Shown piece by piece: positions 4,410 through 32,573 of a DNA stretch of 34,325 bases. Source of the DNA: Xenococcaceae cyanobacterium MO_234.B1 (lineage in GTDB: Bacteria > Cyanobacteriota > Cyanobacteriia > Cyanobacteriales > Xenococcaceae). A program made the translations under genes and the position numbers. The notes below the pieces were generated by a model, which was not told the origin of the DNA, did no database searches, and saw nothing but the letters and a program-made list of their open reading frames with translations. Numbering within the stretch: the stretch's first letter is position 1; each line of letters starts with the position of its first letter. The stretch is from NCBI GenBank assembly GCA_030064915.1, contig JASJEK010000075.1:1-34325 (forward strand), written 5' to 3'.

Positions 4410-6698
4410 ATGGCAAAGCGATCGCTAAAAGCCTCACCCACAGGAATTATTCAAGCAAAAAGAGCTTTTGAGCTTACAGGATGGACACAAGAATATTTAG
4501 CTGCGGAGGTAGGCTTATCTACCCGTCAATCAGTTTGGAAATTTTTTACGGGAAAGCCTGTTGAGCGCCATATTTTTATCGATCTCTGCTTTCAATTAGA
4601 TTTAGAGTGGGAAGATATTGCGGATCTACCCCAAAAATCTAAGTCTTTATCTTCTCATACTGCTAATAATACCACCTCTTTAAATTCTGAGGACTTATTA
4701 ACCATTGCCAGAGACAGAATTCAAGGACAAATTCAAGCTCAATGTAGTACAGTACAATCCTTTTTTGAATATGCTCAACCTTTAAAATTAGATGCTATCT
4801 ATACCAATCTCAATTTACTAACTCACTTAACCAGCCAACGATGGCTAGAAGTATCAGATTTACAAAACAATAATCATTCTGAACGTCTCGACTTTTCCCA
4901 TAACAATTCTCAATCTATCTCTGCTATTTCGGCTGTTAATAACCACGACAAACTGGTATTACTAGGTAAACCAGGAGCAGGTAAAACTACTTTTTTACAA
5001 TATCTAGCCCTACAGTGTATTCAGGGTAAATTTAAACCTGATTGTCTTCCTGTATTTATTTTCTTAAGAACTTTTGTTCATCAATGTAAAGAGAATAATA
5101 ACTTTAGTATTATCAACTATCTGCAAAATCTCTGGGCTAATTACGATCTTGCTCCAGAACAAATAGTAAATCTTTTGCAACAGGGTAAAGTATTAATTCT
5201 TCTCGATGGTTTAGATGAAATCCCTCAAAATTATGAAGTAGAAATATTGTCAGAAATCCAGCAATTTTCAGAGGTTTATTATCAAAACCCGATCATAATT
5301 ACTTGTCGGTTAGCTGGTCAGCAATATCGCTTTAATGGTTTTACTTATCTAGAAGTAGCAGATTTTAACCAAGAACAAGTAGCGACTTTTGCCCAAAAAT
5401 GGTTCATGGCGACAGCCAATAACCCAGAAACAGGAGCTACCAAATCGCAGCAATTTTTAGAGCAACTACGACGTAAAGAAAACCTACCAATTCGAGAATT
5501 AGTAACTACTCCTATCTTACTTAATCTCATCTGTTCAGTATTTCAAGAAAGATTATCTTTTCCCACCAAAAGAGCTAGATTATATCAAGAAGGATTAGAT
5601 ATTCTACTCTTGCGTTGGGATCGTTCTAGGGGAATTGAAAGAGACATTATTTATCAAAACTTATCTTTGCCAGATAAAATCAAGCTTCTGAGTCATATTG
5701 CTGCATACAATTTTCAAAAAGGCAATTTTTTCTTTGAAAAACAGGAATTTATACAAACTATTAGTGATTATCTGTTAACTTTACCAGATACTAATAGGGA
5801 TCCTGAAACTTTAAGGTTAGATAGCGAGGCAATTCTCAAAGCAATTGAAGTACAACATGGATTATTAGTAGAAAGAGCCAGAGGAGTTTATTCTTTTTCC
5901 CATCTTACGTTTCAAGAATATCTTACATCGAGAAAAATTGTCTCTAGCTCTACCAGAGAAGAATTGCACCAAAATTTACAATATTTGGCTAGTAAAATCT
6001 TTAACCCCCAATGGTGCGAAGTCATTTTATTAACTGTTAGTGAATTACCCAACGCAGATTATCTCATCCAGCAACTAAAAATAGAAATCGACTCATTCAT
6101 CCAAAAAGAATCTTATTTACCAGAGTTTTTGCAGTTTATTGACACCAAAGCAAACTCTCTATCCTTACCTTACAAATCAGCAGCAGTCAGAGCTTTTTAT
6201 TTTAGTTTATTTCACAATCGAGACTTAAATTTAGCAATTACTCTAGATGGAAGATTAGCTAACAATTTAGACAACGAGCTAGCTTTAGATTTAGCCTTAG
6301 AAAGAGCTTTTGCTATGGCAGAAACTTTAATGACTAATCCCACAATTCAACAAATTATCAATTTTAGTTTTTCCCTAGACCTTGAATCAAGTTTCTCTCT
6401 ATCTTCTAAAATGAAACAAGCTCTCAGTAACCTTAAACAAAAACTTCCTGAGCCAACAGAAGGAAAAGAAAAAATACTAGCTTGGTGGAATATAGAAGGA
6501 AAAGATTGGTTAGTGCTATTGCGTCGGATGATCAATGATTTTCGTTATGAAGGAACACAATGGGACTTTACTATTCCACAACAAAAAATTCTCCAGCAAT
6601 ACTATGTAGCTAATCAATTTTTCTTAGAATGTCTCCATAGTAATTGCAAATTACTCAATACAACGACAGAAGAACAAGAAAAACTAATCTTGAAATAA
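4410..6698 (+). CDS. HTH-NACHT NTPase (STAND/NLR-like)
   Basis: A 762-residue STAND-class NTPase. Residues 1-75 form an XRE-like helix-turn-helix (GWTQEYLAAEVGLSTRQSVW followed by KFFTGKP), common in front of cyanobacterial NACHT proteins. The NACHT module has Walker A GKPGAGKT at 186-193, Walker B LLDGLDE with Asp266 and the D-G-x-D-E signature at 266-270, and the downstream SFSHLTFQEYL motif near 492. The C-terminal half is helical with no clear repeats, resembling the helical C-terminal domains of bacterial NACHT proteins. Bacterial NACHT proteins include antiphage NLR-like defence proteins, so a defence or programmed-death role is possible but unproven here. It is the third gene of a tight unit with a phosphorelay kinase and receiver, an unusual partner set. 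Confidence 0.87.
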   Translation: MAKRSLKASPTGIIQAKRAFELTGWTQEYLAAEVGLSTRQSVWKFFTGKPVERHIFIDLCFQLDLEWEDIADLPQKSKSLSSHTANNTTSLNSEDLLTIARDRIQGQIQAQCSTVQSFFEYAQPLKLDAIYTNLNLLTHLTSQRWLEVSDLQNNNHSERLDFSHNNSQSISAISAVNNHDKLVLLGKPGAGKTTFLQYLALQCIQGKFKPDCLPVFIFLRTFVHQCKENNNFSIINYLQNLWANYDLAPEQIVNLLQQGKVLILLDGLDEIPQNYEVEILSEIQQFSEVYYQNPIIITCRLAGQQYRFNGFTYLEVADFNQEQVATFAQKWFMATANNPETGATKSQQFLEQLRRKENLPIRELVTTPILLNLICSVFQERLSFPTKRARLYQEGLDILLLRWDRSRGIERDIIYQNLSLPDKIKLLSHIAAYNFQKGNFFFEKQEFIQTISDYLLTLPDTNRDPETLRLDSEAILKAIEVQHGLLVERARGVYSFSHLTFQEYLTSRKIVSSSTREELHQNLQYLASKIFNPQWCEVILLTVSELPNADYLIQQLKIEIDSFIQKESYLPEFLQFIDTKANSLSLPYKSAAVRAFYFSLFHNRDLNLAITLDGRLANNLDNELALDLALERAFAMAETLMTNPTIQQIINFSFSLDLESSFSLSSKMKQALSNLKQKLPEPTEGKEKILAWWNIEGKDWLVLLRRMINDFRYEGTQWDFTIPQQKILQQYYVANQFFLECLHSNCKLLNTTTEEQEKLILK

Positions 6699-7043: not shown

Positions 7044-7178
7044 AGCTACTTTTTAATCTGGTTAGTTGAGATTATTAGCATTAGCTATTTACTTATGCTC
7101 TTTCTTTATTTTCCAAAACAACTATTTGCTATCCCGTTCATTAAGTTGTTTTATTTAATAATATTTTGTATATTTTGT

Positions 7179-7600
7179 CTAATTTACTGACAAAATTTTG
7201 AAGACATAACGAGTTGCCCAAAGAGTAAACAAAGGCATAAAAATTACGTGAGTGATTAATACAGAAGCTGCGACCCCCTGACTCTGCCAATGTACACCTA
7301 GGAAGAGTGCGATCGCAAATAAGCCAGTAAACAAAATATTCCACTTTAAATCTATTTCTGGCTTATCTGCTGATAATAGTAACTGAGAAGCAGAATCAGC
7401 AAAAGGACGGGGGATTGCTGATAAACAAATTAGAATTAAAACAGGAATTGCTGGAATCCATTTTTCGCCAAAAACAATCGGAACGTAGATCGGGGCTAAA
7501 CTAGATTGCAGTAAAACCATTGGCACAATGATTATGGCAATAGTTTTAAGACTATTAAAATAACGGGATTTGAACTGCTGTATATTATCTCTTGCTCCAC
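7179..7600 (-). pseudogene. Polysaccharide flippase (Wzx-like), C-terminal remnant
   Basis: The last ~140 residues of a MOP-superfamily polysaccharide flippase. They show RDNIQQFKSRYFNSLKTIA, a helix with P-x-VLLQSSLAPIYVPIVFGEKW, then APIPVLILIC-like and further hydrophobic helices. FGEKW before a helix is typical of the C-terminal half of Wzx/oligosaccharide flippases. The frame has no proper N-terminus: the ATG at 7652 lies in sequence that, in another frame, encodes a glycosyltransferase. The flippase part therefore begins at a deletion junction near 7590-7600. Such flippases move lipid-linked repeat units across the inner membrane; this one cannot be functional. Confidence 0.75.
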
Positions 7601-7881
7601 AAATGCTCAAATCCTTGACAGTAATGATGATCTGCGATCGCCAGTTGACCATATTGTTTCAGCCACAGTAACTGAGGAAGATATCTCCAAGCACAAGCAT
7701 AATGAAAGACAATTAAATCTGGATTTAGATGTTTAATTTTTGGCTTAATTTCTTCCAATCGCCCTACAGAAAAGTTAAATTCTTCTTGGAGACGAGAAGT
7801 AACTAATCTTTTGACGTAAATATTCGAGCCACCAACCCCTTTATCTCCGATGACGTGCAGTATTCTAGGATTCATCTTCAT
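7585..7881 (-). pseudogene. Glycosyltransferase, N-terminal remnant
   Basis: From the ATG at 7881 (MKMNPRILHV) or 7875 the frame reads the first ~95 residues of a GT-B glycosyltransferase. They contain a first strand with a glycine-rich loop (HVIGDKGVGGSNIYVKRLV), then NPDLIVFHYACAWRYLP and ADHHYCQGFEHL, which match the first Rossmann half of family 1/4 enzymes. The frame stops at 7585, where it runs into the flippase remnant in another frame. The usual second domain with its donor-binding E-x7-E is absent. This is the left partner of a deletion that joined two polysaccharide genes. Confidence 0.72.
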
Positions 7882-7964
7882 CTTATCTATTGAGAAGTTT
7901 CGACGATTGCAACTTTTGTTTCTCCTAACCTTCCCAAAACTAAACAAAAACTAACGCCGATTTG

Positions 7965-7998
7965 AAAAAAGTATCCGCAATTCATGAATTGCGGATAC
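7965..7998 (-). terminator. Rho-independent terminator of the gene at 8067-8768
   Basis: Positions 7971-7998 form a perfect 28-bp palindrome (GTATCCGCAATTC, then ATGAATTGCGGATAC). On the minus strand it is followed directly by a T-run (complement of the A-run at 7965-7970). It lies about 70 bases after the stop codon at 8067. Confidence 0.75.
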
Positions 7999-8066
7999 AC
8001 GAAATGATAGATAGTAAACACCAACAACCCAAACTTGTAATCTGAGGTCTTGCAGTCCTTACAATA

Positions 8067-10761: not shown

Positions 10762-11525
10762 ATGTTCAACCCCAGGAAAACTGCAAGCAAGTTTAGTCCC
10801 GGTCTGGGTATTTTAGGAACAATCCTGATGTCCTCAACAACGATTTCATCTGCTTCAGCATTACCCTTATCTCCAGGCGATCGCCTTTCGGTTTCGATTC
10901 CCAATGAAAAATATTTTGCTCGCACCTATGAAGTGAATCAAAATGGAGAACTCGAAATCCCCTTATTAGGAGAAGTGACCGTTGCAGGATTAGAGCCTAT
11001 CGAAGTAGATTTAAAAGCAGAACAAGAAGGGTTATTGGGGCAAATGGCAACCCTTAAAGCCCAAATAAGTCGCTTAGAAAACGAATTAACGATTCTGGCT
11101 CAAAAAGAAGTAGTACTAGATACTCTAGATCGGGATTTGCAGATTGCTCAAGCTGTTTTTGCTTCTACCCTCACAAAAATCGATCTTAGCAAAGGAGACC
11201 CTTTCGCTGATACTGTTGGCGAAAGTAATATTGGATGAAACTAATAGTACTACAATAACGAGAAATCTTTACTTGGGCGATAAGTAATACTCGATGTAAG
11301 ATGCTTTGTAGCACATTCGCCAACAGTATCTTCGCTTCTTTCCCGATGATACAGGTTATCGAAGAACCAGGTCTTCCCACTGAACCTAGCGCACCAAAAC
11401 CTAAATTAGTCATGGCAGGAACAGTTATTGGCTGTTTGTTAGTAAGTATGGGATTAACTATTCTCTGGTGGCGTGAACCTTTAGTTAAACTCAGCAAAAA
11501 AATTATGTTAAAAATCATCGAATAA
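10762..11525 (+). pseudogene. Wza-GumC deletion fusion, interrupted by a MITE
   Basis: Residues 1-85 are the N-terminus of a Wza-type outer-membrane polysaccharide export protein. They comprise a signal peptide ending SSASA, then LSPGDRLSVSIPNEKYFART and LEIPLLGEVTVAGLEPIEVD. The frame then becomes the coiled coil of a GumC/Wzz-type chain-length protein (LLGQMATLKAQISRLENELT, then LDRDLQIAQAVFASTLTKID). A 122-bp MITE (11209-11330) stops the frame at 11236. The same protein resumes at 11337 with SFPMIQVIEEPGLPTEPSAP and a transmembrane helix ending LTILWWR. Removing the MITE and one copy of its 6-base target restores an exact in-frame join (DPFA-SFPM) of about 211 residues. Two successive events are therefore visible: deletion fusion, then insertion. 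Neither parent protein is functional here. Confidence 0.82.
11209..11330. mobile_element. 122-bp MITE with ends of the 30721 transposon
   Basis: Perfect 15-bp terminal inverted repeats GATACTGTTGGCGAA / TTCGCCAACAGTATC bound a non-coding interior. Both flanks carry TTCGCT (11203-11208 and 11331-11336), a 6-base target duplication. The terminal 15 bases, and at the left end also AGTAAT, are identical to the inverted repeats of the transposon at 30721-33152. It is therefore a non-autonomous derivative, or shares its transposase. Confidence 0.85.
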
Positions 11526-16067: not shown

Positions 16068-19000
16068 TTAAACAGATTTGTGACCAATAATGCTGCTAAT
16101 CGTGTCAAATAATTCTTGTTCGTCACAAGGTTTAATTAAATAAGCTGCTGCACCCAACTGTAAGGCTAGTTTGCGATGTTTATCACTATCTCTGGAAGTT
16201 AGAATAATTACAGGAGTATCGCGAAGACTTTGATTTTGACGCAATGCTTTCAAAAATTGAAAGCCATTCATCATCGGCATTTCTAAATCGCAGACGACAA
16301 GATTAACCTCACCAGACTGTTGCAACTTTTCTAAAGCTTTTAAGCCATTTTCTGCCTGAATTACTGTTTGACTGACTTTTTCTAAAGACATGGCAATACT
16401 CTTTCTTAAGCTAGAAGAATCATCTACTACTAGCAAGGTTTGAGCTAAAGTTGAGCCACCTAAAAGTAGTTGCTGATCGGTATTTCCAGACAGTTTTTGA
16501 GGACTATAATCTGCTAGATAAGCATTTTGAGTAATAGCAGATGCTGTATTTTGATTTTGTTGTAATATTATGTTGCCATCTATAACGAGAGTTAGACTAC
16601 TGTCTTTGAGAACACTACAACCATATATATAATTAGGGGGTGCGATCGCGCTGCCTAAAGGTCTAATTACTAATTCTTGTTCTCCTAAAACTTTTTCTAC
16701 TTCTAACCCTACTAAGCTTCCTTGGCGACGTAGTAGTAAGATTGGATTGTTATTAGAGCTATCAGATTCATCAGTATTTCTAGTTCTTCCTAAAACAGTA
16801 CGCGGATACTCAATTAAGTCGCCTAATTTCCTTACAGGAATAGTTTGAACTTCTGAGTTAGTTTGCCAATGCAGTACTTTATGTCCTTCAAAAACTCGAA
16901 TTTGATTAGAAATTGGCACAACAATTTTTTCTATCGCATCTGTAAGTAAGGCATAGGTAAGACCATCTGCTTGGGTAAGCATAAGTTTAGCAATGGTCAA
17001 AGTTAGGGGTATTTGTAAAGAAAAAACTGTTCCTTGATTGGGGACAGATTCAATTGAAATACTGCCGTCCATGGCTTCAATTTGAGCGCGAACTACATCT
17101 AATCCCACACCTCTTCCTGATAAGGAACTAACTTTTTCCGCAGTCGAAAATCCTGGTTCAAAAAGTAATTCTAGCAGTCTAGATGCTGGAAGACGGTCTG
17201 CATCTTGTGCTGTAATTAGTTTCTTCTTAATAGCACTATTTTTAATTTTTTCTAAATTGATTCCTTTGCCATCATCTTTGATTTCAATAATAGTTTTGCC
17301 ACCTTGATAATAGGCTCTGAGTTCAATAGTTCCTGTCTCTGGCTTGCCATTTTGAAGACGAACTTCGGGAGTTTCTAAACCATGATCAAAACCATTACGA
17401 ATTAAATGAAGTAACGGGTCATATAGTTTTTCTTCTACTGTTTTATCAATTAAGATATGACCTCCAGTAATTTTTAGATCAACCTTTTTCTTATAGGTAG
17501 TTGCTAATTGCTGTAGCATTCGAGGGAACCGATTGAAAACCCTACCAATAGGAGACATTCTGGTATCAATCAATTCATCTCTCATATTTAACAGCATTCG
17601 TTGCTGTTTTTGGGTACTTCTTTGGGCTTGTTTATTGTAGGTTTTGATTTTTTCTGCTATTTCTGAGAGTTCGGAATTACTGTGAAGAGATAATTTGAGT
17701 AACTGTTCAATATTCGTTTCATTGACAGGATCAAGATTAGATTGTGATCGCGTAATTCCAGAATTATTAACAAAAGATGTATCTGGATTAGTTTTAACTA
17801 ATTGTTGTAATTTATTGGGTAATGATTGCCTAATTTTTTGTTGTTCAGGAGAAATATAGACTTCATCAACAATACTAATTAGACTATTAATGATTTGTTC
17901 ATTATAGTTAATTTTATCTAGCAAGTCTTGAACCAAATCATAAATCTTCTCATCCTTAAGAATATTTTGGTTTTGATTAATTAAAATTTCTCCTACTAAA
18001 TCATTTAATTTTTCAAGAGATTCTAAGTTAACCCGAACTGTTTGATTTACTGATTTTTTCTGGTTTGTGTGCGATCGCGAAGGAGAATTTAATTTAGATT
18101 TTGTAGAAGTAATAACTGTAGTATTGTCTGCGTTAATAACTGGTTTAGCATCAATTGTAATAGAGGTTTCTACAGCAGTAAAAGATACTTCTAATTTATT
18201 AGTGTTATCTTGGAATTCATCAGAAATAATCGATGATGTAGCGGTTATTTCGGGCGTAACTGAATCAGAGGGAGCAGAATTTTCATTCAATACTTCGGAA
18301 GATTCAACTTCATTACCCCAAATTTCTCCCAGTAATTCTTTGGAAGAGGTATCTTGATTAAGTGCTTCTGGAGGTTGTGGCAAGATCACCGATGCCATAC
18401 TATTTTCTATATCCTCATTAATCAAACTAAATGAGGATTCTATTTCTGGCTCATCTTGTTCAACGGAAGCAGAAGGAGAGTCTTCTAATAATTGCAAATC
18501 TTCTGCTGATAAAGAAAATAAATCATCATCCTCTTCTTCTTCTGGTTGATTAACTATAGATACTGAGTTTTCTGCTTGATTTAGAGATTGAATTTGACGG
18601 TGGGGGATGGCGAGGTCTCCTCGCCATATCGAACCACCATGTTGACTTACATCTTGAGGAGGAAATTCATTTTGCATCTCCCTCAATAATTCCATAGCTT
18701 CTGAATCATTTTCTTCATTAGAAAACTCAGTTTCTAGAGACGCTGCTAAATCTGAAATATCTTGCTCTGTTGGTGTATCTATTAGAGTTGCAGTTATATC
18801 TATATCATCTTTTCTGTCTTGATTAGACGAATCAACAATTTGAGATTCCAAATCTATATATGATGTTGAGACATCTTCAATTAATTCAGTTGCTGGAAGA
18901 CCACTAGCTAATTGCAATAAAGCAGGAGAAGGTTCTCCGCCTCTTTCTCGATCTCCTTCCAAGACTTGTTTTTGCGCTTGTTCGATATTGGCGATCGCAG

Positions 19001-19697
19001 CTTGGGCTACTTCCATAATGGGATTGCTACTGTTATCTAAAGCCATAATAATAGTCTGGGCAATCTCGCCAAATCCAGGTAGCCCTAAAGATTCAGCTAA
19101 ACCGATAAAGATTTCTGCCTGAGAGCGCAAAAATTCCCCAATCTGATTATCATCAGCTCCAGCTACCGCAGCATAAAGTTCTTGCAATCTTTCTGGAATT
19201 ACGGCTTCAAAGAAAGATTCTACAACGTCTAGACCCAACTCTTCCGAAGTGGGGAAAGCATCTTGATCTGTGAGATAGTCGCCAAATATTTCTTGTAATT
19301 GAGCAAAAACTGTAGCAGCGCGGTCTAAAATTGCATCCCGATCAATGGAAATCTTACTAAATTCAGCCGTTAGAGGTTGACGGAGACATTCATAGCTTTC
19401 ATAAATGAGTCTTTTAGTTTCTGCATCAAGTTCTAACTCAGGATTATAAAGAGCCTTAAAAACGTCTTCCATCGAGTGGGCTACGGTTTTAATAGTTTCT
19501 AGTCCTACATTAGCAGCCCCACCCTTGAGAGTATGAGCAGCTCGCATCAGTTGATTAACCCTTAAAGCTCGATCTTGAAGCGCCACCTCACCTTCGTTGA
19601 TGGCAAAAATTTCCTCTTCGATAGTTTGGAGCAATTCTGGTGCTTCTTCGAGAAAATAGTGATAGGCTTGGTCACGAATATCAGGATCAGTAATCAT
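16068..19697 (-). CDS. CheA-type hybrid histidine kinase (PixL/HmpE-like)
   Basis: A 1209-residue chemosensory kinase. An N-terminal Hpt has His55 (AAHTLKGGAANVG). A long acidic linker follows, then a P3-like dimerisation region (RVNLESLEKLNDLVGEIL). The ATPase domain has its N-box around 764-773 (HLIRNGFDHG) plus DDGKGI and GRGVGLDVV. A CheW-like domain precedes the C-terminal receiver, whose phosphoacceptor is Asp1137 (VVCDLEMPMMNGF), with T/S in ILTSRD and Lys in LIKP. This is the pixL/hmpE layout. It autophosphorylates the Hpt under control of the MCP and passes phosphate to CheY/PatA receivers that control type IV pilus motility. A palindromic repeat is inserted in frame at residues about 351-368 in the linker. 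It lies 98 bases downstream of the MCP gene and is last in the operon. Confidence 0.92.
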   Translation of the reverse strand: MITDPDIRDQAYHYFLEEAPELLQTIEEEIFAINEGEVALQDRALRVNQLMRAAHTLKGGAANVGLETIKTVAHSMEDVFKALYNPELELDAETKRLIYESYECLRQPLTAEFSKISIDRDAILDRAATVFAQLQEIFGDYLTDQDAFPTSEELGLDVVESFFEAVIPERLQELYAAVAGADDNQIGEFLRSQAEIFIGLAESLGLPGFGEIAQTIIMALDNSSNPIMEVAQAAIANIEQAQKQVLEGDRERGGEPSPALLQLASGLPATELIEDVSTSYIDLESQIVDSSNQDRKDDIDITATLIDTPTEQDISDLAASLETEFSNEENDSEAMELLREMQNEFPPQDVSQHGGSIWRGDLAIPHRQIQSLNQAENSVSIVNQPEEEEDDDLFSLSAEDLQLLEDSPSASVEQDEPEIESSFSLINEDIENSMASVILPQPPEALNQDTSSKELLGEIWGNEVESSEVLNENSAPSDSVTPEITATSSIISDEFQDNTNKLEVSFTAVETSITIDAKPVINADNTTVITSTKSKLNSPSRSHTNQKKSVNQTVRVNLESLEKLNDLVGEILINQNQNILKDEKIYDLVQDLLDKINYNEQIINSLISIVDEVYISPEQQKIRQSLPNKLQQLVKTNPDTSFVNNSGITRSQSNLDPVNETNIEQLLKLSLHSNSELSEIAEKIKTYNKQAQRSTQKQQRMLLNMRDELIDTRMSPIGRVFNRFPRMLQQLATTYKKKVDLKITGGHILIDKTVEEKLYDPLLHLIRNGFDHGLETPEVRLQNGKPETGTIELRAYYQGGKTIIEIKDDGKGINLEKIKNSAIKKKLITAQDADRLPASRLLELLFEPGFSTAEKVSSLSGRGVGLDVVRAQIEAMDGSISIESVPNQGTVFSLQIPLTLTIAKLMLTQADGLTYALLTDAIEKIVVPISNQIRVFEGHKVLHWQTNSEVQTIPVRKLGDLIEYPRTVLGRTRNTDESDSSNNNPILLLRRQGSLVGLEVEKVLGEQELVIRPLGSAIAPPNYIYGCSVLKDSSLTLVIDGNIILQQNQNTASAITQNAYLADYSPQKLSGNTDQQLLLGGSTLAQTLLVVDDSSSLRKSIAMSLEKVSQTVIQAENGLKALEKLQQSGEVNLVVCDLEMPMMNGFQFLKALRQNQSLRDTPVIILTSRDSDKHRKLALQLGAAAYLIKPCDEQELFDTISSIIGHKSV
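18596..18646 (-). repeat. REP-like palindromic element, copy 2, inside the CheA gene
   Basis: On the minus strand GTCAACATGGTGGTTCGATATG-type sequence (read in two parts: CAACATGGTGGTTCGATATG, then GCGAGGAGACCTCGCC) is followed by ATCCCCCACCGTCAA. It matches the element at 127-194 in order: CAACA-GTGGTT-GATATG, a GAGG/CCTC hairpin, then ATCCCCCAC. The stem GGCGAGG (18609-18615) pairs with CCTCGCC (18619-18625). It is translated as SQHGGSIWRGDLAIPHRQ without breaking the frame. Confidence 0.72.
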
Positions 19698-19795: not shown

Positions 19796-22700
19796 TTACT
19801 TTACTTTGAACTGAGCCACACTAGATTGCAAGTTGTTAGCCAGCTTTTCTAGTTGTTGGAAGGAAGCCGAGATTTTCTGGGATTCATCAGAAGTTTCATT
19901 GGCGATTTCTGCTACTTGTCCCATTACCTGAGTTACAGATTCTGCTTGTTGAGTTTGCTCACTAGCAGCACTACTAATATCTTGTACTAAGGCTCTAATT
20001 TCATCAGTAGCAGTAACGATCGCATTGAGACTATCACGAGTATCATTTACTAAACTTGTTCCTTCTGCGACTTGCTGTACTCCTGCTTCCATTGCAGCAG
20101 AAACTTCTTGAGTTTCATCTTGAATCTCTCTTACCAGTTTTTCAATTTCGATGGTAGCTTCTGAGGATTGTAAAGAGAGGTTTCGTACTTCATCTGCTAC
20201 TACGGCAAAGCCTTTACCATATTCTCCAGCACGGGTTGCTTCTAAAGCAGCATTGAGAGCTAGTAAGTTAGTCTGAGCAGCGAAAGAACTAATGAGATTA
20301 ACCACACGAGAAATCTTTTGAGAAGAATCACTGAGTCGTTTAACTCGCTTACCAGCATCAGCCACAGTTTGACGGATACCCACAATACTATCTACAGTTT
20401 TATTCATAGCCCGATCGCCTTCTTTAACGGTGCGATCGGCTTGTTCGATAGCTACTTCTACTTTTTGGGCTTTTTGAGTTGTGAGATTAGAAGCTTTGAT
20501 GGTAGCTTTTACTTTATCCAGAGCTGCTTGTAGTTCTTCTAACTGCTTCTGGGACTTAAAGGAGAGATTTTCTACCACACCACTACTGACTTGAGTAGTT
20601 TGAGCTACCTGTCCAACAGCTTCTTGTACTTGTAAAACGATTTGTTTGAGAGAATCGAGAGTAGTATTATAGGCTCCTGCGATGGTGCCAATTTCATTTT
20701 CTGTAACTTTGGCTCTCACGGTTAGGTCTCCACTAAAAGCAGGTCTAACAGTGCGAAGCATATCTACTGCTTGTTTCTGTAGTTCTTCTTTAGCTGCTTT
20801 TTCTCTAGCTAGGGTTTGAGAGAGGTTTTCTGATTGAATGCGTAGTTGCTCTGATTTTTCTGCTTGTTCGATAGCAATTCCTAGTTGAGGGGCAATTTTT
20901 AGGAGCAAATTCAGTTCGTTAGCTTTCCATTCCCGCGCTCCAGAGTTTTGATAAACGGCAAATAAACCCCAAAGTTTATTTTCTTGGAAAATTGGAACAA
21001 TAATATAAGCTCTAGCTTGATATTTTTCTAGAGAGCGCAGATAGCAAGAAGAGAATCCAGCACTATAGACATCATTAACTACATTGAATTTTTTGCCCCT
21101 GGTATAGTCTCCTCCTTGGGTATTGATAAAATAAGTATCTTGATCGAGAGCTGAACCTGCTTCCATATTTTTCAGGGTACATTGCTCATTGGCATTCATT
21201 TCTTTGCTAAAGAGAGTTTCATCAGTTTCCTGAATTTCCATGATCGATACCCACTCTGAACCAGCAGATTCCGCCAAAACTTCTCCTGTCCAGTCAGGAT
21301 TAAAACGATAAACTACGGCGCGATCAACTTGCAGCAGCTTGCGAACTTCCTGGGTAGAGCTGCGGAAAATTTCTTGCAGTTTCAGAGAACTACCAATACG
21401 CTGCACAATATTGGAGACAGCTTTTTCTTGTTGTGCCTGAGTTTGTAACTCTTCTAAATACTGTTTTTGTTGAATGACGATTCCGATTTGTCCTACTATT
21501 TGCTTGAGAAACTCTAGGTCATCTTCTTGCCAAACACGAGTTTGAGATTGATAGATATTGATTATGCCCCAGAGCTTTTGATCGACAAAAATCGGCATTC
21601 TGACGTAAGCCTTGATGTCTAATCTTTCCAAGACTCCAATGAGACGTTCTTCCAGACCTGATTTGCTAACATCATTAACGATACAGGATTCACCATTTTT
21701 ATAGCTTCCACCTTGATTTTTTTGTAAATAAGGATAGGGGTTTTTAGCAAAAGTAGTTTGAAAACAAGAAGCTTGAGAAGATTTAAAATCCTGATCGATA
21801 GGGACTTCTACAATATTTGCTCCGCTCCAGTCAGAATTAAAACGATAGATGCTGGTTCTTGCTACTGTTAGTAATTTACGAGTTTCTTGAGCAGCAATTT
21901 CTAAAACATTCTCTAAGGATGGGGTATCTCCCATCCGATCGACCATCTGAGCCAGACTTTTTTGCCTAACTACTGTTTTTCTGAGTTGTTCAGTTGTTTC
22001 TGCTTGTTCGATGGCAATTCCTAGTTGAGGAGCAATTTTGAGGAGCAAATTCAGTTCATTGGCTTGCCATTCCCGTACTCCAGAGTTTTGATAAGCAGCA
22101 AATAAACCCCAAAGCTTATTTTCTTGGAAAATTGGAACGATGATGTAAGCTTTAGCTTGATATTTTTCGAGAGACTGTAAATAACAAGAAGAAAAGCCAG
22201 CACTATAGACATCATTAACTACTTGGAATTTCTTACCTTTAGTGTATTCTCCCCCTTGATTGAGCTTAAAGTAAGTGTCGTTGTCTAATGCAGGAGTAGC
22301 TTCCAAGTATTTCAAAGTACAGCTACTAGAAGCATTCATTTCTGTACTGTATAGTTCATCATCGGTTTCTTGGAGTTGCATTACCGATGTCCAACCAGAA
22401 GACATCGACTCTGCTAGAACTTCGCCACTCCAATCTTGTTTAAATTGATAAACGACAACGCGATCGCATTCTAACAGTTGACGAACTTCGTTAGTAGAAG
22501 TACGGAAAATATCTCGTAAATCTTGAGATTGCTGAATTTTCTGGACGATTTTAGCTACTGCTCTTTCTTGTTGCGCAATTTTTTCCTGTTGCTTGACTTG
22601 ACTTTCAATCTCTTTCAGGGAACGGATTTTGCCTATCCCAATTCCCACTTGTAAGCCAATTTGTCGGAGAATATCAATCTCTTCTTGTTTCCATTTACGA

Positions 22701-24310
22701 GAACCAGAGTTTTGATAAACTGCCACTAATCCCCAGAGTTTTTTATCAGTAGTCATATCTCCGATAAAAATAGGTGCGATCGCATAAGCTCTAGCTTCAA
22801 ACTGCTCTAGTAACTCAATATGGCAAGCTTGATGACCAACCATGTAGATATCATCAACAGCAAAACATTCGCCATATTTATAACGTCCTCCCTGATTTTC
22901 TTGGAGGAAAGTGTCTTTGACAATAGGAATACTATCAATTAGTTTCGACCACCCAGAAGCCACAGATTCGGCAATAAATTCGCCACTCCAATCATCATTA
23001 AAACGATAGATAGCTAGACGATCTGCTTGGAGTAATTTTCTTCCTTCTTGGGTTGCCACTTGAAAAATTGCTTTTTCATCATTAGCAATCTGCATTCTCT
23101 CCAGCATTTTGCTCAAACCTTTTTCTCTTTGAATTGCCTTTTCCATTTGTTTGGTTTGAAATTGGCTATTGCGGAGAAACAGAGTTTGTTGTAAGGGGAG
23201 GGCAAATTTAGTAGCTTGCTTAACTAGTTGATTAACTTCAGACTTTTGCCAATTACGAGAACTAGAGTTTTGATAAATTCCTAAAACCCCTAAAAGCTGA
23301 TTGTTGTATTCAATGGGAACAACAATATAGGCTTTGGCTTGTAATGCTTCTAAATTTTCTACAAGACAGCGTGCAAAGCCTTTTGTATATATGTCATTCA
23401 CTACGTAGTAAGGCTTATATTCATCTGTCTTGAGGAAATAATCAAAATCAAAATATGAACCTGCTTTTGCCCAATTGCTTCCTACTGATTCTGTTAAAAT
23501 TTGACCACTCCAGTCAGGATTGAAAGCATAAACTAAAGCTCGGTCTGCTTTGAGAGACTCTCTTATTTGATGCAAAGAATCTTGCATCAATTCCTGCATT
23601 TCACGGTCAATTTTGCCTAAAATGTCTTGCTGATATCCAAATTGAAAACTAGGTTGATTTTTCTCGACAACAATAGTTAATTCAGTGGCAATGCGATCGA
23701 GTAAATTAATTTCTTCTTCTTCCCAAGAGCGAGGTTTGGAACATTGTTGAACTACCAATAAACCCCAAACTTTATTAGAAGCATAATTATCGTTTTCTAA
23801 GGAAAAAGAATTAAGAGTTATGGGAATACTTAGAGAGGCTCTTACCTGAAACTTCTCTAGCAGTTGTTTTTGATAGGGAGTTAGTCGGCTTTGTTTTACA
23901 TCTTGAATCGCCAAAAATCCTTTAGACTGATAATCTAAGATTTTCTGACCGCCAAAACTACTGCAAGGGATAACCTCATCTTGAGTAGGAGTCCAACCTT
24001 CGATGATTGATTCGGCAATAACTCTTCCTTCATTTTGAGCTTCAAACTGGTAAATCAAAACTCGGTCTGCTTTGAGGTTTTGACGGATTACAGAGACAGT
24101 TTTAACTAAAAAAGCTTCAAAATTTTTAGCTTGACGAATTTGTTTGATAATTTTATTAGCTCGTTCTCTTTCTCCTTTAAAAAGATTGGTTTTAATCTTT
24201 TTAACTAGATCATTTTTTGATGATCCTTGCTGATTAACTTGGGTATTGTCTGCATCTTCAATGGCAGGATTTGTTCCATTATTTGTTACAGAAATAGTTG
24301 AAGTATCCAT
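19796..24310 (-). CDS. Methyl-accepting chemotaxis protein with six GAF domains (PixJ/HmpD-like)
   Basis: 1504 residues with no membrane segment. Six GAF domains occupy about 50-1170, then a HAMP-like stretch (~1185-1235) and the MCP signalling coil (~1250-1500; VADEVRNLS hairpin). Bilin-site cysteines vary. GAF1 has Pro-Tyr and no Cys. GAF2 has Cys315 (ARCLVENL). GAF3 has Cys496-His ([10 protein letters not shown]), the best canonical site. GAF4 has Cys709-Tyr plus a second Cys664 (SCTLK) in an insert. GAF5 has none. GAF6 has Cys1089-Tyr plus Cys1044 (QCTLK). GAF4 and GAF6 are near copies, also at DNA level. GAF3, and possibly GAF4/GAF6 as insert-Cys types, could bind phycocyanobilin, making this a candidate phototaxis receptor. 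It controls the CheA gene next to it through CheW. Lack of membrane helices suggests a cytoplasmic or pole-tethered array. Confidence 0.9.
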
Positions 24311-24605: not shown

Positions 24606-25190
24606 CTATTTATAAGTACTGAAATTAGGGTTAATCGCAAAGAACTGAAAAACCTCTGCTGCATTAATAAGCATCACTATATTATTACTTTTATCTGTTA
24701 GATATCCATTGAGAAAAGGGAGGACATCTTCAGAAAAAATTTCCGAAGAAGGAGCTTTAAACTGCTCTAAATCTTGTTCGATTATATTGTCAATTTGAGG
24801 AATTACTAATCCTAGTGATTGTCCTTCTATTTGAACTACCATCACCAATACAGTGTCATTCGTTGGCTCAAAAGAAGGGGGATAACCTAAAAGATTCTCT
24901 AAATCGACAATCCATAACATTTCACTACGCCAACTGTAAATGCCAAGAACACAATAAGGCATTTGAGGCACAGATAAAATTTCTGATACGGAGACAGTAA
25001 TTATCTCTGTTACGATTTCGGCTTCTAATAAGGCGAAGTCTCTACCACTAGCGGAACTGGTAACGCTGTCGCTGCTTCCGAGATAAAATTGTAGGAATTT
25101 ATTAATTTGTTGGGTTGTTGATTCTCGATCAGTCTTGGAATTAATACTGACAGATAGAGAATTAGAAGAAGAAGTGCTTAACATAACCAT
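24606..25190 (-). CDS. CheW-like adaptor (PixI/HmpC-like)
   Basis: A 194-residue protein. After a Ser-rich N-terminus (1-30) comes a CheW fold: FLQFYLG, FALLEAEIVTEII, VPQMPYCVLGIYSWRSEMLW with the G-x-x-x-x-R-G-like turn replaced by GIYSWRSE, then IVDLENLLGYP and a final strand. It would couple the GAF-MCP to CheA. It starts 5 bases after the stop of the CheY gene, so the two are in one operon. Two in-frame ATG codons (25190 and 25184) are possible starts; the first is kept. Confidence 0.88.
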   Translation of the reverse strand: MVMLSTSSSNSLSVSINSKTDRESTTQQINKFLQFYLGSSDSVTSSASGRDFALLEAEIVTEIITVSVSEILSVPQMPYCVLGIYSWRSEMLWIVDLENLLGYPPSFEPTNDTVLVMVVQIEGQSLGLVIPQIDNIIEQDLEQFKAPSSEIFSEDVLPFLNGYLTDKSNNIVMLINAAEVFQFFAINPNFSTYK

Positions 25191-25195
25191 TGTTA

Positions 25196-25558
25196 TTATT
25201 GAATGAGTTGCTGTACTTTTCCTAGTAATTCATCTCGATTAACAGGCTTGGTTATGTAAGCATCTGCTCCGACAACATCTCCCCACATTTTGTCAGCTTC
25301 AGTGGATTTAGAAGAACAAAGAATCACTGGAATTGGTTTGGTATTTTGATCTGCTTTGAGGTTGCGACATAATTCAAAACCACTTTTACCTCCCATCACT
25401 ACGTCAAGAACTATCAGTTGAGGTTGATAGTCAGCTATTTTGTCCATTGCTTCTTCTGCACTTTCTACGTCTAGTACAGTTAAGCCAGCTTCTGTGAGAT
25501 AGGTAGTTAAAACTCGTCTGTCCATTAAACTGTCATCAACAACCAATACTTTACTCAT
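25196..25558 (-). CDS. CheY-type response regulator (PixH/HmpB-like)
   Basis: A 120-residue single receiver: VVDDS (6-10), Asp52 (LIVLDVVMGGKSGFELC), Ser82-Ser83 in place of the usual Thr (ILCSSK), and Lys104 (YITKPVNRDELL). It belongs to the pixH/hmpB position of the operon, between PatA and CheW. The protein should take phosphate from the CheA Hpt and act on the type IV pilus machinery or as a phosphate sink. Start ATG at 25558; the stop is 5 bases before CheW. Confidence 0.92.
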   Translation of the reverse strand: MSKVLVVDDSLMDRRVLTTYLTEAGLTVLDVESAEEAMDKIADYQPQLIVLDVVMGGKSGFELCRNLKADQNTKPIPVILCSSKSTEADKMWGDVVGADAYITKPVNRDELLGKVQQLIQ

Positions 25559-26135: not shown

Positions 26136-27359
26136 TTAGATCGGATTAGGAGTCATCTTACCCTGAGTTTCACGAACTTTTCCCTGAACTTTAGCCTTAG
26201 AGGGCATATTTTCAGCGATCGCTTCATGAATTTTCTCGATCTCAACAGGTTTGGCCACAAAGGCATTAGCTCCTACAACTTTAGCTCTGACGCGATCTAC
26301 TATCCCATCATTTCCCGTGAGAATAACGATAGGAATATTTTTGAGTTTAGAGACTCTTTTAATCTGAGAACAAATTTCGTAGCCATTGACAATCGGCATC
26401 CCAATATCGAGAAAAATCAAATCAGGATCAGCAGCAATTAAGCCAGGAACAGCTTGGAGAGCTTGTTGAATTCCGACAAACCTGTATCCTGCTTTAGTGA
26501 TAATTTGCTCCATAATGTTACAAATTTGGGGACTATCATCAATGCAAGCAATTAAGGGTTTATTAACAGAATTTTGTGATTTAGGAGAATTAGGCTCTTG
26601 AACTTGAAGATTAGGGGGTTCAATATCATCAATAACTAATAGATCTAGTAGCCCTTGATTAATATAGGGAACTAGAGAAGAGGTTAGTTTGCGTACCTCT
26701 TTGTTCATCCGCGCGGATAAATCGAGAAGAGTTCTTTGACCATCCAGCAGTCTGAGAAAATTTTGAAAGACGATACCAGAAACTTCTTCTCGTAATCTCT
26801 CTTGCTGTTTCATCTTGGGAGCTAGATGAGGAGACCATTTTCCTAGTCCTTTTTCTTGCCAAATTAACCATGCTTGTTCCGACTCTGCCAGTACTTCTTC
26901 GATATTGACTAGAGAAATGGACATTTGTAAGCCAGATGTCAAGAAAGATGAGGTAGATGCAGTTTCAGGTGTAATCTTTAGAGGACCTTGACTTTCATGT
27001 TGTAAGAGATCGAAGAAAACCTCATTAGCTCTGGTTTTGATTACTTCTGCTGCTTGTTCTCGTTGCAGTAATTTTCTTTGTAATAAAACTGTTAAAACGT
27101 AATAGTCTCCACATTTAAATTTTGCATCCTTTCTGAGTTGAAGATTGTTCCAATTAACTTGAGGACAATATTTATCTAGTAATCTTTTCCATGAACGATG
27201 GGGATGAATTCCGCCGTCAGTCCAAACTAATCTCCCTAAACAAAGATAAAGTGACCACTCAATTCCTGTGGAAGATTGTATTTTGACTTGGCCTGTAAAT
27301 TGTTTTTGTTTGATAAACATTAACTTATTTGCTAATTGACTATTAGATTTATGCACCAT
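26136..27359 (-). CDS. PatA-type response regulator (PixG/HmpA-like)
   Basis: A 407-residue protein, first gene of the Pix-type operon. Residues ~1-245 are the PATAN region (FTGQVKIQS, SLYLCLGRLVWTDGG, HPHRSWKRLL). Residues ~267-390 are an intact receiver: CIDDS with Asp274-275, phosphoacceptor Asp318 (LIFLDIGMPIVNGYEIC), Thr of ILTGND, and Lys of VAKPVE. PatA/PixG proteins act with PilB/PilT-linked machinery to set pilus position and direction of movement. The paralogue at 13464 shares most motifs but has lost the phosphorylation residues. The gap to the CheY gene (577 bases) is filled with repeats, so internal promoters are likely. Confidence 0.92.
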   Translation of the reverse strand: MVHKSNSQLANKLMFIKQKQFTGQVKIQSSTGIEWSLYLCLGRLVWTDGGIHPHRSWKRLLDKYCPQVNWNNLQLRKDAKFKCGDYYVLTVLLQRKLLQREQAAEVIKTRANEVFFDLLQHESQGPLKITPETASTSSFLTSGLQMSISLVNIEEVLAESEQAWLIWQEKGLGKWSPHLAPKMKQQERLREEVSGIVFQNFLRLLDGQRTLLDLSARMNKEVRKLTSSLVPYINQGLLDLLVIDDIEPPNLQVQEPNSPKSQNSVNKPLIACIDDSPQICNIMEQIITKAGYRFVGIQQALQAVPGLIAADPDLIFLDIGMPIVNGYEICSQIKRVSKLKNIPIVILTGNDGIVDRVRAKVVGANAFVAKPVEIEKIHEAIAENMPSKAKVQGKVRETQGKMTPNPI

Positions 27360-27810
27360 AACAAAACCACGCTTTTATTACTTTTATAGATACTCAAACA
27401 AAATATCAGTTGCTATGAAATAACTTTGATTTATTCCCAGAGCGAACTTTTAATCTTAGCTGGTATTATTATGGCATAGAGTTTTTTAAAATACTGAAAA
27501 ACTGAGATTAGAATTTATAACTATATCCTATAATATTATCTATTAAAAATTAGTAAAAATACTGATTTACTGAATTTTAATTACTATTATCTCAGGGATA
27601 TTACATACAGGACTTCAACGACATAGCATGAAATGCACGAGAACTTATATTGTTAGGATAAGTTACTCTACAAACTTAAAGTCCTGCTGGTAATAATAGC
27701 AGCGAACGAACCAGTATAGTCTTTGAATAAATACGAGACCTAAATGAGAAAGTTTCAGGCTTTCTTGCCAAAAGTTTCGTAGTGTAAACAATATTTTGGA
27801 GAATCGATCA
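27360..27810. other. Divergent intergenic region
   Basis: About 450 AT-rich bases between the PatA-like operon (minus) and the hydrolase remnant (plus). It holds the promoter of the chemosensory operon by position. An inverted repeat CAGGACTT (27608-27615) / AAGTCCTG (27679-27686) brackets 63 bases and could be a small MITE or a structured leader. A good ribosome binding site (GGAG, 27797-27800) serves the ATG at 27811. No gene was recognised. Confidence 0.35.
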
Positions 27811-28014
27811 ATGAGTATTTCTGACTCGGCAGTAAATAGTAATTCAGAGTGGCATTCTTGGGAGAAAGGCAACTTTAAAATATATCAATCAGGAATTCAT
27901 AAAGAAGGTGACTACATTCGAGTATATGCTCCCTTAAAAAATATTGAGGTTCCAGTAGCAATTTTGCACGGAGTTGATGACAAAATTGTTAAACCAAAAG
28001 AATGGGTCAAACCC
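27811..28014 (+). pseudogene. Alpha/beta hydrolase remnant (internal deletion)
   Basis: From ATG 27811 the frame gives SEWHSWEKGNFKIYQSGIHK, then YIRVYAPLKNIEVPVAILHG and VDDKIVKPKEW. The first part looks like the start of a large hydrolase. VPVAILHGVDDKIVKP is the strand with the catalytic Asp that normally lies ~150-200 residues later (PVLLIHG-x-DD-x-IVP). The nucleophile elbow G-x-S-x-G and the C-terminal His are absent. The gene was therefore shortened internally, then cut by the end of an IS1634-like element whose sequence begins near 28015. Its last residues are read from that element. Confidence 0.55.
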
Positions 28015-28277
28015 ATTGATAATTTCTACTATTCCTAGTTCATCCACAATTTCGGCTACTAATCCCAAATGGTCGAGATTTTTGACTTGAATTTCCCCAT
28101 TTATTGGTGTCATTTATTGGTAGCAATTAAGATTCCGCAATAGTCTCTTAAACCCATGAAATCTCTCTTGACCCAAATTATGACTCAACTCAAACATTAG
28201 TACTATTTGCCGTCTAGATTGATTATCATTCTCAGGTAATGAGTTGTGACACTTTAGGGTGCGGAAGATGGGTTATC
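28015..28277 (-). mobile_element. IS1634-like (DUF4277) element, left-end remnant
   Basis: On the minus strand from ATG 28113 the frame reads VKNLDHLGLVAEIVDELGIV then EIIN, the conserved start of DUF4277/IS1634 transposases (..venLDHLGLVAgiiDElgl...iN). It stops matching near 28015. The remaining 160 bases to about 28277 would be the element's 5' non-coding end, finishing at GATAACCCATCTTCCGCACC on the minus strand. Only this end survives. It separates the hydrolase remnant from the photoreceptor kinase. Confidence 0.62.
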
Positions 28278-28479
28278 ATGTTAACTGGGCAAGAAAATGA
28301 AGCAATTGAGGCAAAGGCAATGAAAAGTCAAAAATAAACAACAACAAAAACTAACAGCAAATATAGCTTTACGAATTCGTCAATCTCTTAATTTACAAGA
28401 TATTCTCGATATCGCAGTTAGGGAAGTCCAAAAATTACTGGATTGCGATCGCGTTGTAGTTTATCGTTTTGCTGCTGAT
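28278..28479 (+). pseudogene. 5' part of the photoreceptor kinase gene, disrupted frame
   Basis: The GAF domain of the kinase continues upstream of 28480 in the same frame ([20 protein letters not shown], then [18 protein letters not shown]) as far as an in-frame TGA near 28321, with no ATG, GTG or TTG. A frame starting at ATG 28278 gives [19 protein letters not shown] and stops at TAA in an A-run (CAAAAATAA). One extra A there would join the two frames into a plausible linker plus GAF start. Either a single-base deletion broke the gene, or translation starts at a non-standard codon. Confidence 0.6.
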
Positions 28480-30453
28480 ATGACTGGAGATATTGTCGCC
28501 GAATCAGTCAAATCTGGCTGGAGAAAGGCGCTTGGGACGAAAATAATCGATACTTGTTTTCAAACCCAGGGGGCAGATAAGTATCGACGGGGCGAAACAA
28601 TGGCAATTAATGATGTTTATGCAGCCGAGCTTAGTCAATGTCATGTCAAGCTTTTGGCAGAATTTCAAGTCAAAGCCAACGCCATAGTCCCAATCCTCTC
28701 TCTATCTCCCTCTTCTCCTTCTAATTTTAGTAATTCTCATCTTTGGGGATTACTTATTGCCCATCATTCTTATCGCACTCATCAGTGGCAAAAAGACGAA
28801 ATTGAATTACTCAATAAGTTGGCAGTACATTTAGCGATCGCAATTCAACAAGCAGAACTATTAAATAATCTTAAAAATGAGCTAAATCGACGCCAGCAAA
28901 TAGAAGCAGAAATTCAACAAGCAAAGGAAAAACTCCATCAAGCTAATATTCAATTAGAGCAAAGGGTAAAAGAGCGAACCAGAGAACTCTCTCAAGCTAA
29001 ACAAGCTGCTGAGGCTGCTAATGAGGCAAAAGATGCTTTTATTGCTCACATGAGCCATGAATTACGTACCCCGTTAAACAGTATCTTGGGTTTTAGCAGC
29101 ATCTTGCAAAAAGAGGCACATACTACCTCAAAACAACTTCATCACCTCAATATTGTTCATCAATCAGGTCAACATCTCCTGACTCTAATTAACCACATTC
29201 TTGATTTTTCAAAAATATCTGCTAACAAACTGGAATTAGAAACCCAAGATATTAATTTAAGGCAATTTTTCCGGGAAATTATCGAAATTTTCTGTCTCCG
29301 CACTCGACAAAAAGGTTTAGAATTCTTTAGCTACATCTCGCCGTCTCTCCCCACTGTCGTCAATACTGATCCCACCAGGCTACGACAGGTTTTATACAAT
29401 TTACTGGGTAATGCCGTCAAATTTACTAATACTGGTAGAGTGACCCTCAAAGTCGGTTATGTGAAAGATTTTGAGGCAGATTTTGAGGCAGATTTTGAGG
29501 ATAACAATTTCCGTGAGTCTTCCCCGTCCCCTGAACCCTCACCTGTCAAAAAAATTCGCTTTCAAATCGAAGATACAGGAATAGGGATTCCTGCCGATAA
29601 ATTCCCTGCTATTTTTGCTCCTTTTGGACAGTTAAATAGTGATGGAGGAAACAATGAAGGCACTGGTTTGGGATTGACCATTAGCCAAGAAATTATGCAA
29701 CTGATGGGGAGTCAAATCCAACTCGAAAGTCAGGTAGCCCAAGGTAGCAAGTTTTGGTTCGATTTAGAACTGTTGGCAGTAGAGACTAATATCTCTCCCA
29801 ACTTACCAAAGTTTAGCTGTCAAGTTCCCCGTCGTTTGCGTGTACCCCGTAAAATTCTAGTGGTAGATGATAATTATGACAATCGCAGCTTACTGGTTAA
29901 CTATTTACAGCCCTTCGGCTTTACCTTAGCAGAAGCAAATAATGGTCAAGTTGGTTTAGAGATTGCCAAAACCTTTCAACCCGATGCCATTTTAGTAGAT
30001 TGGCTCATGCCCGTAATGGATGGCAAAGAAATGGTTGCTAGGCTCAAACAACAACCTCAGTTGCAGGATTGTCTAGTTGTTATGATTTCTGCTAGTAGTC
30101 AGTCCATAGTTGAGCCATCAGAAGTAGGCTGTCATGAGTTGTTGTCTAAACCAGTAAACTTAAAACAACTAATGGCATTATTAGAGAGTCATTTGCAGCT
30201 AGATTGGCTATCGGGTGAATCCACCACAGAACCCGATAACTCATCGATTCTGGTAACTCCTCCTCAAGAAACATTAATCAAATTATTAGAGTTAACCGAA
30301 CTCGGGGATATGGAAGAGATTGAACAGCAAATAAATTCTCTAGAAGCATTAGATGCCCAATATATTCCTTTTATCAAGCAAATCCGACAGCTTGCTGCCA
30401 GTTTTCAACAGCATCAATTGGAAATTTTTATTAAGAATTTTCTGGAAAATTAA
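28480..30453 (+). CDS. DXCF cyanobacteriochrome hybrid histidine kinase
   Basis: Numbering is from the ATG at 28480, although the GAF fold really begins about 50 residues upstream. The GAF carries Asp-Thr-Cys26-Phe ([10 protein letters not shown]), the DXCF motif, and the canonical bilin Cys54-His55 ([15 protein letters not shown]), with [10 protein letters not shown] after it. This pair defines DXCF cyanobacteriochromes, which usually sense violet/blue against green or orange light. A coiled coil leads to HisKA with His193 ([10 protein letters not shown]), an ATPase domain ([18 protein letters not shown]), then a receiver with Asp507 ([16 protein letters not shown]) and Lys in LSKPVN. The last ~65 residues are helical, like an Hpt without its His. 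It should be a soluble light-regulated kinase. It stands next to the Pix-type operon, a natural output target. If 28480 is the true start, the GAF lacks its first strand and helix. Confidence 0.87.
29467..29501 (+). repeat. In-frame 12-bp tandem repeat in the kinase gene
   Basis: GATTTTGAGGCA is repeated almost three times, encoding [12 protein letters not shown] within the ATPase domain, between the NAVKF strand and DTGIGIP. It lies in a loop and lengthens it by whole codons. Confidence 0.8.
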
Positions 30454-30914: not shown

Positions 30915-32573
30915 ATGTCGTTACATCCACAACCGATTCCACCAGTGCCAGAAGCAACCGCACGAATTGCCCGTGCTGCTTTCCCCAAAGGTAATATTTA
31001 CATTAAGATTCGAGATACTTTGGGTAGTATTTACGTTGATGAGGACTTTGCTGATTTATTTTCAGTGAAAGGTCAACCTGCTCAGTCACCTTGGAGATTA
31101 GCTTTAATCTCTGTCATGCAGTACATGGAAAACCTATCAGACCGTCAAGCGTGCCGTCTGCAGTCAGAGGAAGAATTGATTGGAAATATGCACTTTCTCT
31201 GCCTTTAGAAGACTCTGGGTTTGATTTTTCTGCTTTGAGTGAATTTCGGAAACGTTTGATTGAAGGGAGTTCTGAAGAACTGTTATTAAACCGAATCTTA
31301 GAGAAATTAAGAGAAAAAGAATTAATTAAAGAGCATAAGCGACAACGTACTGATTCGACACATATTTTGGCAGCTATTCGCCCTCTCAATCGCTTAGAAA
31401 CCTTGGGGGAGACAATGCGGGCAGCCCTCAATAGTTTGGCGATCGCTGCTCCTGATTGGTTAGCCAAACGCCTCAAGAAAGATTGGTTTGACCGTTATGG
31501 AAGAAGAGTCGAAAATTACCGTCTGCCTAAACTCGATTCCGAACGAGCAAATTTAGGCAATCAAATAGGAGAAGATGGTTTTAATTTACTCAACAAAATT
31601 TATGCTCAAAATGCTCCAGAATGGCTACGTTACATTCCTGCTGTAGAAATTCTGCGACAAGTTTGGGTTCAACAATTTTATGCTCCTGTTGAGGGAAAAG
31701 TGAAATGGCGTAAGCCTAAAGATATGCCTCCCTCAACCATAGCCATTCATTCACCCTATGATGTGGAGGCTCACTATAGTTCTAAAAGAAGTGTTAATTG
31801 GGTTGGCTATAAGGCTCATGTAACTGAAATCTGTGATGAAGACACGCCACACTTCATTACTGATGTTCAGACAACTTTATCTACTGTCACCGATGAAGCA
31901 GTAGTTGAACCAATTCATCACGCCCTACTTGAGAAATCGCTACTCCCAGAGGAACACTTGATGGATTTGGGTTATATTACCGCAGGACATTTAGTTTCTT
32001 CTCAAGAAAATTATGGCATTGAATTAATTGGTCCAGTACGCAACGATCCTACTTGGCAAGCCAAACACCATCCTAAATTTGCCAATTCTAATTTTCAAAT
32101 AGATTGGGACAAGCAAGTAGCTATTTGCCCTAGAAAACATCAAAGTAAAGGATGGATTGAAAAAACCGATTCTAAGGGACAGCCCATAATTCATATCAGA
32201 TTTTCTCAATCTAACTGCTCCCCTTGCCCTTCTCGTAGTCGATGCACCCGTGCTAAAACCGAACCAAGAGGGCTGACTATTCATCCGAAACAAGAATACA
32301 TTGCGCTTCATCATCGTCGTGAAATTCAACAGACTCCTGAATTTCTCAAAACTTATAATCAGAGAGCAGGAATTGAAGGTACGATATCTCAAGGTGTCAG
32401 ACGTTCAGCTTTGCGTCAATCTCGCACTAATTGGTTTAGCTAAAACTCATCTACAACATATCTTGATGGCTGTTGGGCTGAATTTGTGTCGTCTCAATGA
32501 TTGGTTGAATGGTATTCCCCTTGCACCTACTCGTTATTCTCGATTTATGCGCCTCAAACCCAAAACTAGCTAA
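30915..32573 (+). pseudogene. IS1182-like DDE transposase, two frameshifts
   Basis: The start MSLHPQPIPPVPEATARIAR, then DLFSVKGQPAQSPWRLALIS and VMQYMENLSDRQA, is the N-terminal domain of IS1182/DUF772 transposases. At about 31150 the frame shifts, and VRGRIDWKYALSLPLEDSGF continues. Catalytic residues are visible: TDSTHILAAI (first Asp), EEHLMDLGYITAGH (second Asp) and AGIEGTISQG (Glu). A cysteine cluster CSPCPSRSRC precedes the last part. At about 32430 a one-base change (CGCACTAATTGG) shifts the frame again, after which GLAKTHLQHILMAVGLNLCR and PTRYSRF complete the protein at 32573. Apart from the two shifts the protein looks full length (~550 residues), so inactivation is recent. It would cut and join at the 43-bp ends. 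Confidence 0.85.

Follow-up and report, generated by a model that had tools for sequence, protein, structure and literature searches.

A probable 5′-amputated relic of a DXCF cyanobacteriochrome kinase gene beside a Pix-type operon in a Xenococcaceae cyanobacterium

Bilin-binding GAF domains comparable with the one studied here have been described on both kinases and chemoreceptors. In PPHK of JSC-1 (PDB IDs: 6oap, 6oaq and 6ob8), the GAF domain lies between a receiver (REC) domain and a histidine kinase, and the solved state absorbs green light at 562 nm (PMC11480761). TePixJ carries a blue/green DXCF GAF domain (PDB IDs: 4fof, 4glq and 2m7u) on a chemoreceptor. In Synechocystis, PixJ1 is thought to signal via PixL to PixH and PixG (PMC5812497), and GAF domains with a CXXR/K motif form the insert-Cys type (PMC5240096). 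Here we describe a DXCF GAF kinase gene in a 34,325 nucleotide stretch of DNA from Xenococcaceae cyanobacterium MO_234.B1 (hereafter, the window). It makes up the entire contig C296 of a genome assembled from a metagenome, 81% complete and in 459 contigs, and the evidence is at the level of the assembly. The gene is probably a 5′-amputated, recently broken relic of an ordinary REC-GAF(DXCF)-histidine kinase-REC gene. Features of the window are listed in Table 1.

Table 1. Features of the kinase gene, its flanks and the neighbouring operon (window coordinates)
Feature	Coordinates	Strand	Basis or remark
PixL-like CheA-REC	16068..19697	-	Domain matches
PixJ/PtxD-like chemoreceptor	19796..24310	-	Six GAF matches, two of the insert-Cys type (CTLK ... 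DTYF)
PixI-like CheW	24606..25190	-	Domain match
PixH-like CheY	25196..25558	-	Domain match
PixG-like response regulator (DUF4388 + REC)	26136..27359	-	Domain matches
Short ORF, weak alpha/beta-hydrolase scrap	27796..28038	+	E 0.02
DUF4277 (transposase N-terminus) remnant	27937..28113	-	Domain match
Transposon-like end	28139..28272	+	Terminal sequence TTGTGACACTTTAGGGTGCGGAAGATGGG at 28244-28272, recurring elsewhere
REC remnant, 19 codons	28272..28328	+	Frame other than that of the kinase, closed by TAA at 28335-28337
Kinase open frame	28324..30453	+	GAF ~28390-28845, HisKA ~29026-29223, HATPase_c ~29365-29772, C-terminal REC ~29854-30183
Deletion junction	28325..28334	+	~101 bp of the G007 homologue (REC end and linking helix) lacking here; frame shifts
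ATG taken as start in the sequence-only reading	28480..28482	+	Residue 53 of the open frame; within GAF, after strand 43-49 and before strand 55-62
DTCF (DXCF) motif, second cysteine = residue 78	28549..28560	+	Motif alignment, family conservation
Canonical chromophore Cys-His, residues 106-107	28639..28644	+	Motif alignment, family conservation
Transposase (DUF772 / DDE_Tnp_1_6), split over two frames	30915..32443	+	Downstream of the kinase

The gene had been read from the letters of the sequence as an ORF at 28480–30453 encoding a light-sensing hybrid kinase. This ORF is present as described (657 codons from an ATG, plus strand), and the frame is open further upstream, to an in-frame stop at 28321, giving 709 codons and a stop. 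About 45 stops would be expected by chance in 709 codons of the same composition and none was observed, which, together with the recognised domains, rules out a chance frame. The domains found are GAF, HisKA, HATPase_c and Response_reg, with HisKA and HATPase_c above the cut-off. The Pfam match to GAF spans residues 23–174 of the 709-codon frame, and the bases from 28324 to 28480, upstream of the ATG, read as the beginning of that domain.

The GAF domain is, by its sequence, of the DXCF cyanobacteriochrome class. DTCF occupies residues 76–79 of the open frame, and a Cys-His pair of the kind that binds the bilin A-ring follows at Cys106 and His107; these are the residues named in the sequence-only reading as Cys26 and, in SQCHVKLL, Cys54-His55, and they lie where it placed them. 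The region of the two motifs aligns without gaps with the TePixJ GAF domain (2m7u), with the same 28-residue spacing between cysteines. Both cysteines are nearly invariant in 21 family sequences (the window gene and 20 homologues), the exceptions being L115, which lacks the first, and L130, which lacks the second. An AlphaFold2 model of the GAF domain, built on the frame from 28324 with 20 homologues (mean pLDDT 82.9), has its best PDB matches in PPHK (6ob8 and 6oap), AnPixJ (3w2z) and TePixJ (4fof), with TM-scores to TePixJ 4fof and 4glq of 0.85–0.88 (by target length), so that from 28324 the fold is complete. The placement of Cys26 in the chromophore pocket was checked indirectly, through the match of the model to bilin-bound 4fof and the gap-free motif alignment. 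Motif alignment, family conservation and fold thus all bear out the earlier assignment as a dual-cysteine DXCF GAF domain on a hybrid histidine kinase.

The start codon is another matter. In the model, the GAF domain opens with helices at residues 2–20 and 24–39 and a first strand at 43–49, and Met53, encoded by the ATG at 28480, falls after all three. A protein begun there would miss two helices and the first strand, so this ATG is wrong as the start for the GAF domain, and expression of the annotated ORF from it would probably yield a misfolded domain. From the stop at 28321 to position 28480, the frame holds no ATG, GTG or TTG, and the gene is without the start codon that an ordinary gene has before its first domain; an ATG upstream of GAF is present in 20 of 20 homologues. 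Of the working sensor kinase proposed earlier, the class and the intact kinase motifs stand, but the claim that it works is weakened by the loss of the front of the gene and by the lack of an ordinary start codon before the GAF domain. Reading by motif gave the right photoreceptor class and overlooked the loss of the front end, which is a caution for such readings.

What the homologues carry in this place is an N-terminal REC domain, found directly before GAF in 18 of the 20 and absent in L115 and L128, two cases by which REC loss occurred more than once in the DXCF kinase family. The window gene does not have the REC-GAF-HK order of PPHK; it keeps an out-of-frame remnant of 19 codons, and across every forward frame back to 26000 this remnant (28272–28328) was the only REC sequence consistent across homologues. 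Over 55 bp, its nucleotides match a REC fragment in the terminal part of another contig of the same genome (G000:C254) at 95% identity. The REC sequence on that contig is a second broken copy (L152, ~7143–7307, minus strand), which runs into unrelated sequence and soon a stop, and a transposase-like ORF lies near it. On the upstream side, the REC homology of the window abuts the repeated end TTGTGACACTTTAGGGTGCGGAAGATGGG at 28272, and this end recurs at G000:C304 and, in the same genus, at G004:C34, with different flanks. On the downstream side, the ~101 bp gap was defined against the G007:C106 gene, whose GAF domain is 75% identical. The interval of ~1.1 kb between PixG and the kinase holds the hydrolase scrap, the DUF4277 remnant and the transposon-like end; from adjacency alone, we infer that the DUF4277 remnant is part of the same element as the repeated end.

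These observations suggest an order of events. A transposon, probably a DUF4277 element, would have landed within the part that encodes REC and severed the gene's front, and the loss of ~101 bp would have taken the remaining REC, with a change of frame. Left over would be the GAF domain, the kinase and the C-terminal REC as one intact frame with no ordinary start before GAF. The ancestor was most likely a blue/green photoswitch, in which the GAF domain would have bound phycocyanobilin at Cys106 and converted it to phycoviolobilin; Cys78 would have made and broken a second bond, altering kinase activity and the flow of phosphate to the attached REC. As in PPHK, the ancestral N-terminal REC would have supplied a second input.

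The kinase half keeps 67 of 69 positions conserved in other sequences, with two deviating, as in other relatives; HisKA and HATPase_c carry the catalytic motifs of a histidine kinase, and the motifs of both kinase and receiver are intact. Against the nearest relatives, dN/dS is ~0.24 for the GAF domain and roughly 0.27–0.33 for the kinase (NG86 and YN00), although these values and the conserved-position figures mostly reflect the time before the damage and fit either a recent loss or a partly working gene. Because dN/dS is low, any loss of function would be recent; a long decay of the gene was considered and rejected on the open frame, the conserved catalytic residues and the low dN/dS. The two halves differ in their nearest relatives, the GAF domain being closest to G007:C106 and the kinase to G004:C197 (65% identity) and G007:C277 (62%), versus 48% for the kinase of G007:C106, and the kinase half may have been exchanged in a domain swap. 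An in-frame 12-base tandem repeat, GATTTTGAGGCA, at 29469–29502 (plus strand) between the N box and the G boxes of the kinase, encodes 11 residues.

The 709-codon frame without a stop, the kept kinase positions and the low dN/dS speak against a relic, as do L115 and L128, which are naturally without REC and both have a start codon, so that loss of REC need not by itself inactivate a kinase of this family. The same evidence favours the rival that survives best, that the window gene encodes a functional, REC-less light-sensing hybrid kinase, read either from a non-canonical start upstream of GAF or by frameshift from an ATG in the frame of the REC remnant. We regard this as rather unlikely: the start codons shared by all 20 homologues are missing here, the frame of the remnant ends at the TAA at 28335, and by eye the junction shows no recognised programmed frameshift signal. 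It is quite unlikely, too, that the amputated gene is still translated and that transposon damage turned a kinase with two inputs, phosphate and light, into one that responds to light only.

It is very unlikely that an assembly artefact masks an intact gene, whether through a base error or through misjoining at the repeated transposon-like end. The genome is a metagenome-derived draft in many contigs, with a repeated end sequence at the junction, both of which would favour an artefact, but the repeat is shared over a short length, with differences between copies, and the ~101 bp gap lies on the kinase side of the repeat, between two blocks homologous to one and the same gene. A single base error does not suffice to explain the change of frame and was rejected, since that change is accompanied by the ~101 missing bases.

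The sequence-only reading also placed the gene beside a phototaxis-like operon, pointing away from it, and this is correct: a PixGHIJL-type run occupies 27359–16068 on the minus strand. The further suggestion, that the kinase may feed into this operon, is not supported. In the three relatives with a visible flank (G005, G003 and G001), a second PixG-like gene and rsmI (named by reading the sequence) stand before the operon, and no kinase does, so the window gene has no conserved linkage with pixGHIJL; tandem PixG-like genes occur in at least seven further genomes. In the window, the kinase is bounded by transposon remnants. The operon needs no neighbouring kinase, as it has its own PixJ with two insert-Cys GAF domains, whose CTLK insert and DTYF match the CXXR/K type, and its own CheA, PixL. 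The kinase gene most likely came to lie next to the operon by chance, through rearrangement. A working DXCF kinase started at 28480 and feeding the operon is thus almost certainly wrong, for although the GAF and kinase motifs do exist and the operon lies alongside, its GAF domain would lack the opening helices and strand, its neighbourhood is not conserved in relatives, and the operon has a photoreceptor and CheA of its own.

Elsewhere on the contig, the stretch 4410–6698 (plus strand) encodes a protein with a NACHT domain and, at its C terminus, NCH2. It partially matches the PADLOC candidate PDC-S60 (E 1.7e-13), and its neighbours are a response regulator and a hybrid kinase. Fragments resembling polysaccharide export, flippase and glycosyltransferase genes at 7179–8000 and 10762–11238 have clashing frames, which suggests more gene decay on the contig. 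Searched against Rfam and for tRNAs, the window yielded no matches.

Set against known systems, the operon of the window resembles the tax1/pix operon of Synechocystis and the ptx operon of Nostoc punctiforme (PMC5812497), with homologues of PixG, H, I, J and L likewise in one run. The kinase is not a conserved part of this operon. With its six GAF domains, its insert-Cys and no strongly hydrophobic 19-residue segment, the PixJ of the window looks closer to N. punctiforme PtxD, which we take to be NpF2164, than to Synechocystis PixJ1. The GAF domain of the kinase shares with TePixJ the fold, the cysteine spacing and the gap-free alignment of DXCF and CH, but is carried on a hybrid kinase and not on a chemoreceptor. 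PPHK, its best structural match, has the REC-GAF order of the homologues of the window gene; however, the PPHK GAF domain is without the DXCF cysteine that the window GAF domain has, and the window gene is without the REC in front. The nearest counterparts are the REC-GAF-HK proteins of Pleurocapsa-, Hyella- and Waterburya-type cyanobacteria, with a homologous GAF domain, DTCF and CH at the same positions and a histidine kinase output. A paralogue in the same genome (G000:C45), with a 60% identical GAF domain in a 573-codon frame, is a better bench target than the window gene, and the intact relatives in Xenococcaceae-type cyanobacteria, with a DXCF GAF domain behind REC on a kinase, suit tests of how one kinase serves both a receiver and a blue/green sensor. 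The window gene itself is best viewed as a decayed representative of this ordinary, known cyanobacterial kinase family, in which 18 of 20 members keep the REC and all 20 the start codon, whereas the window copy has lost both.
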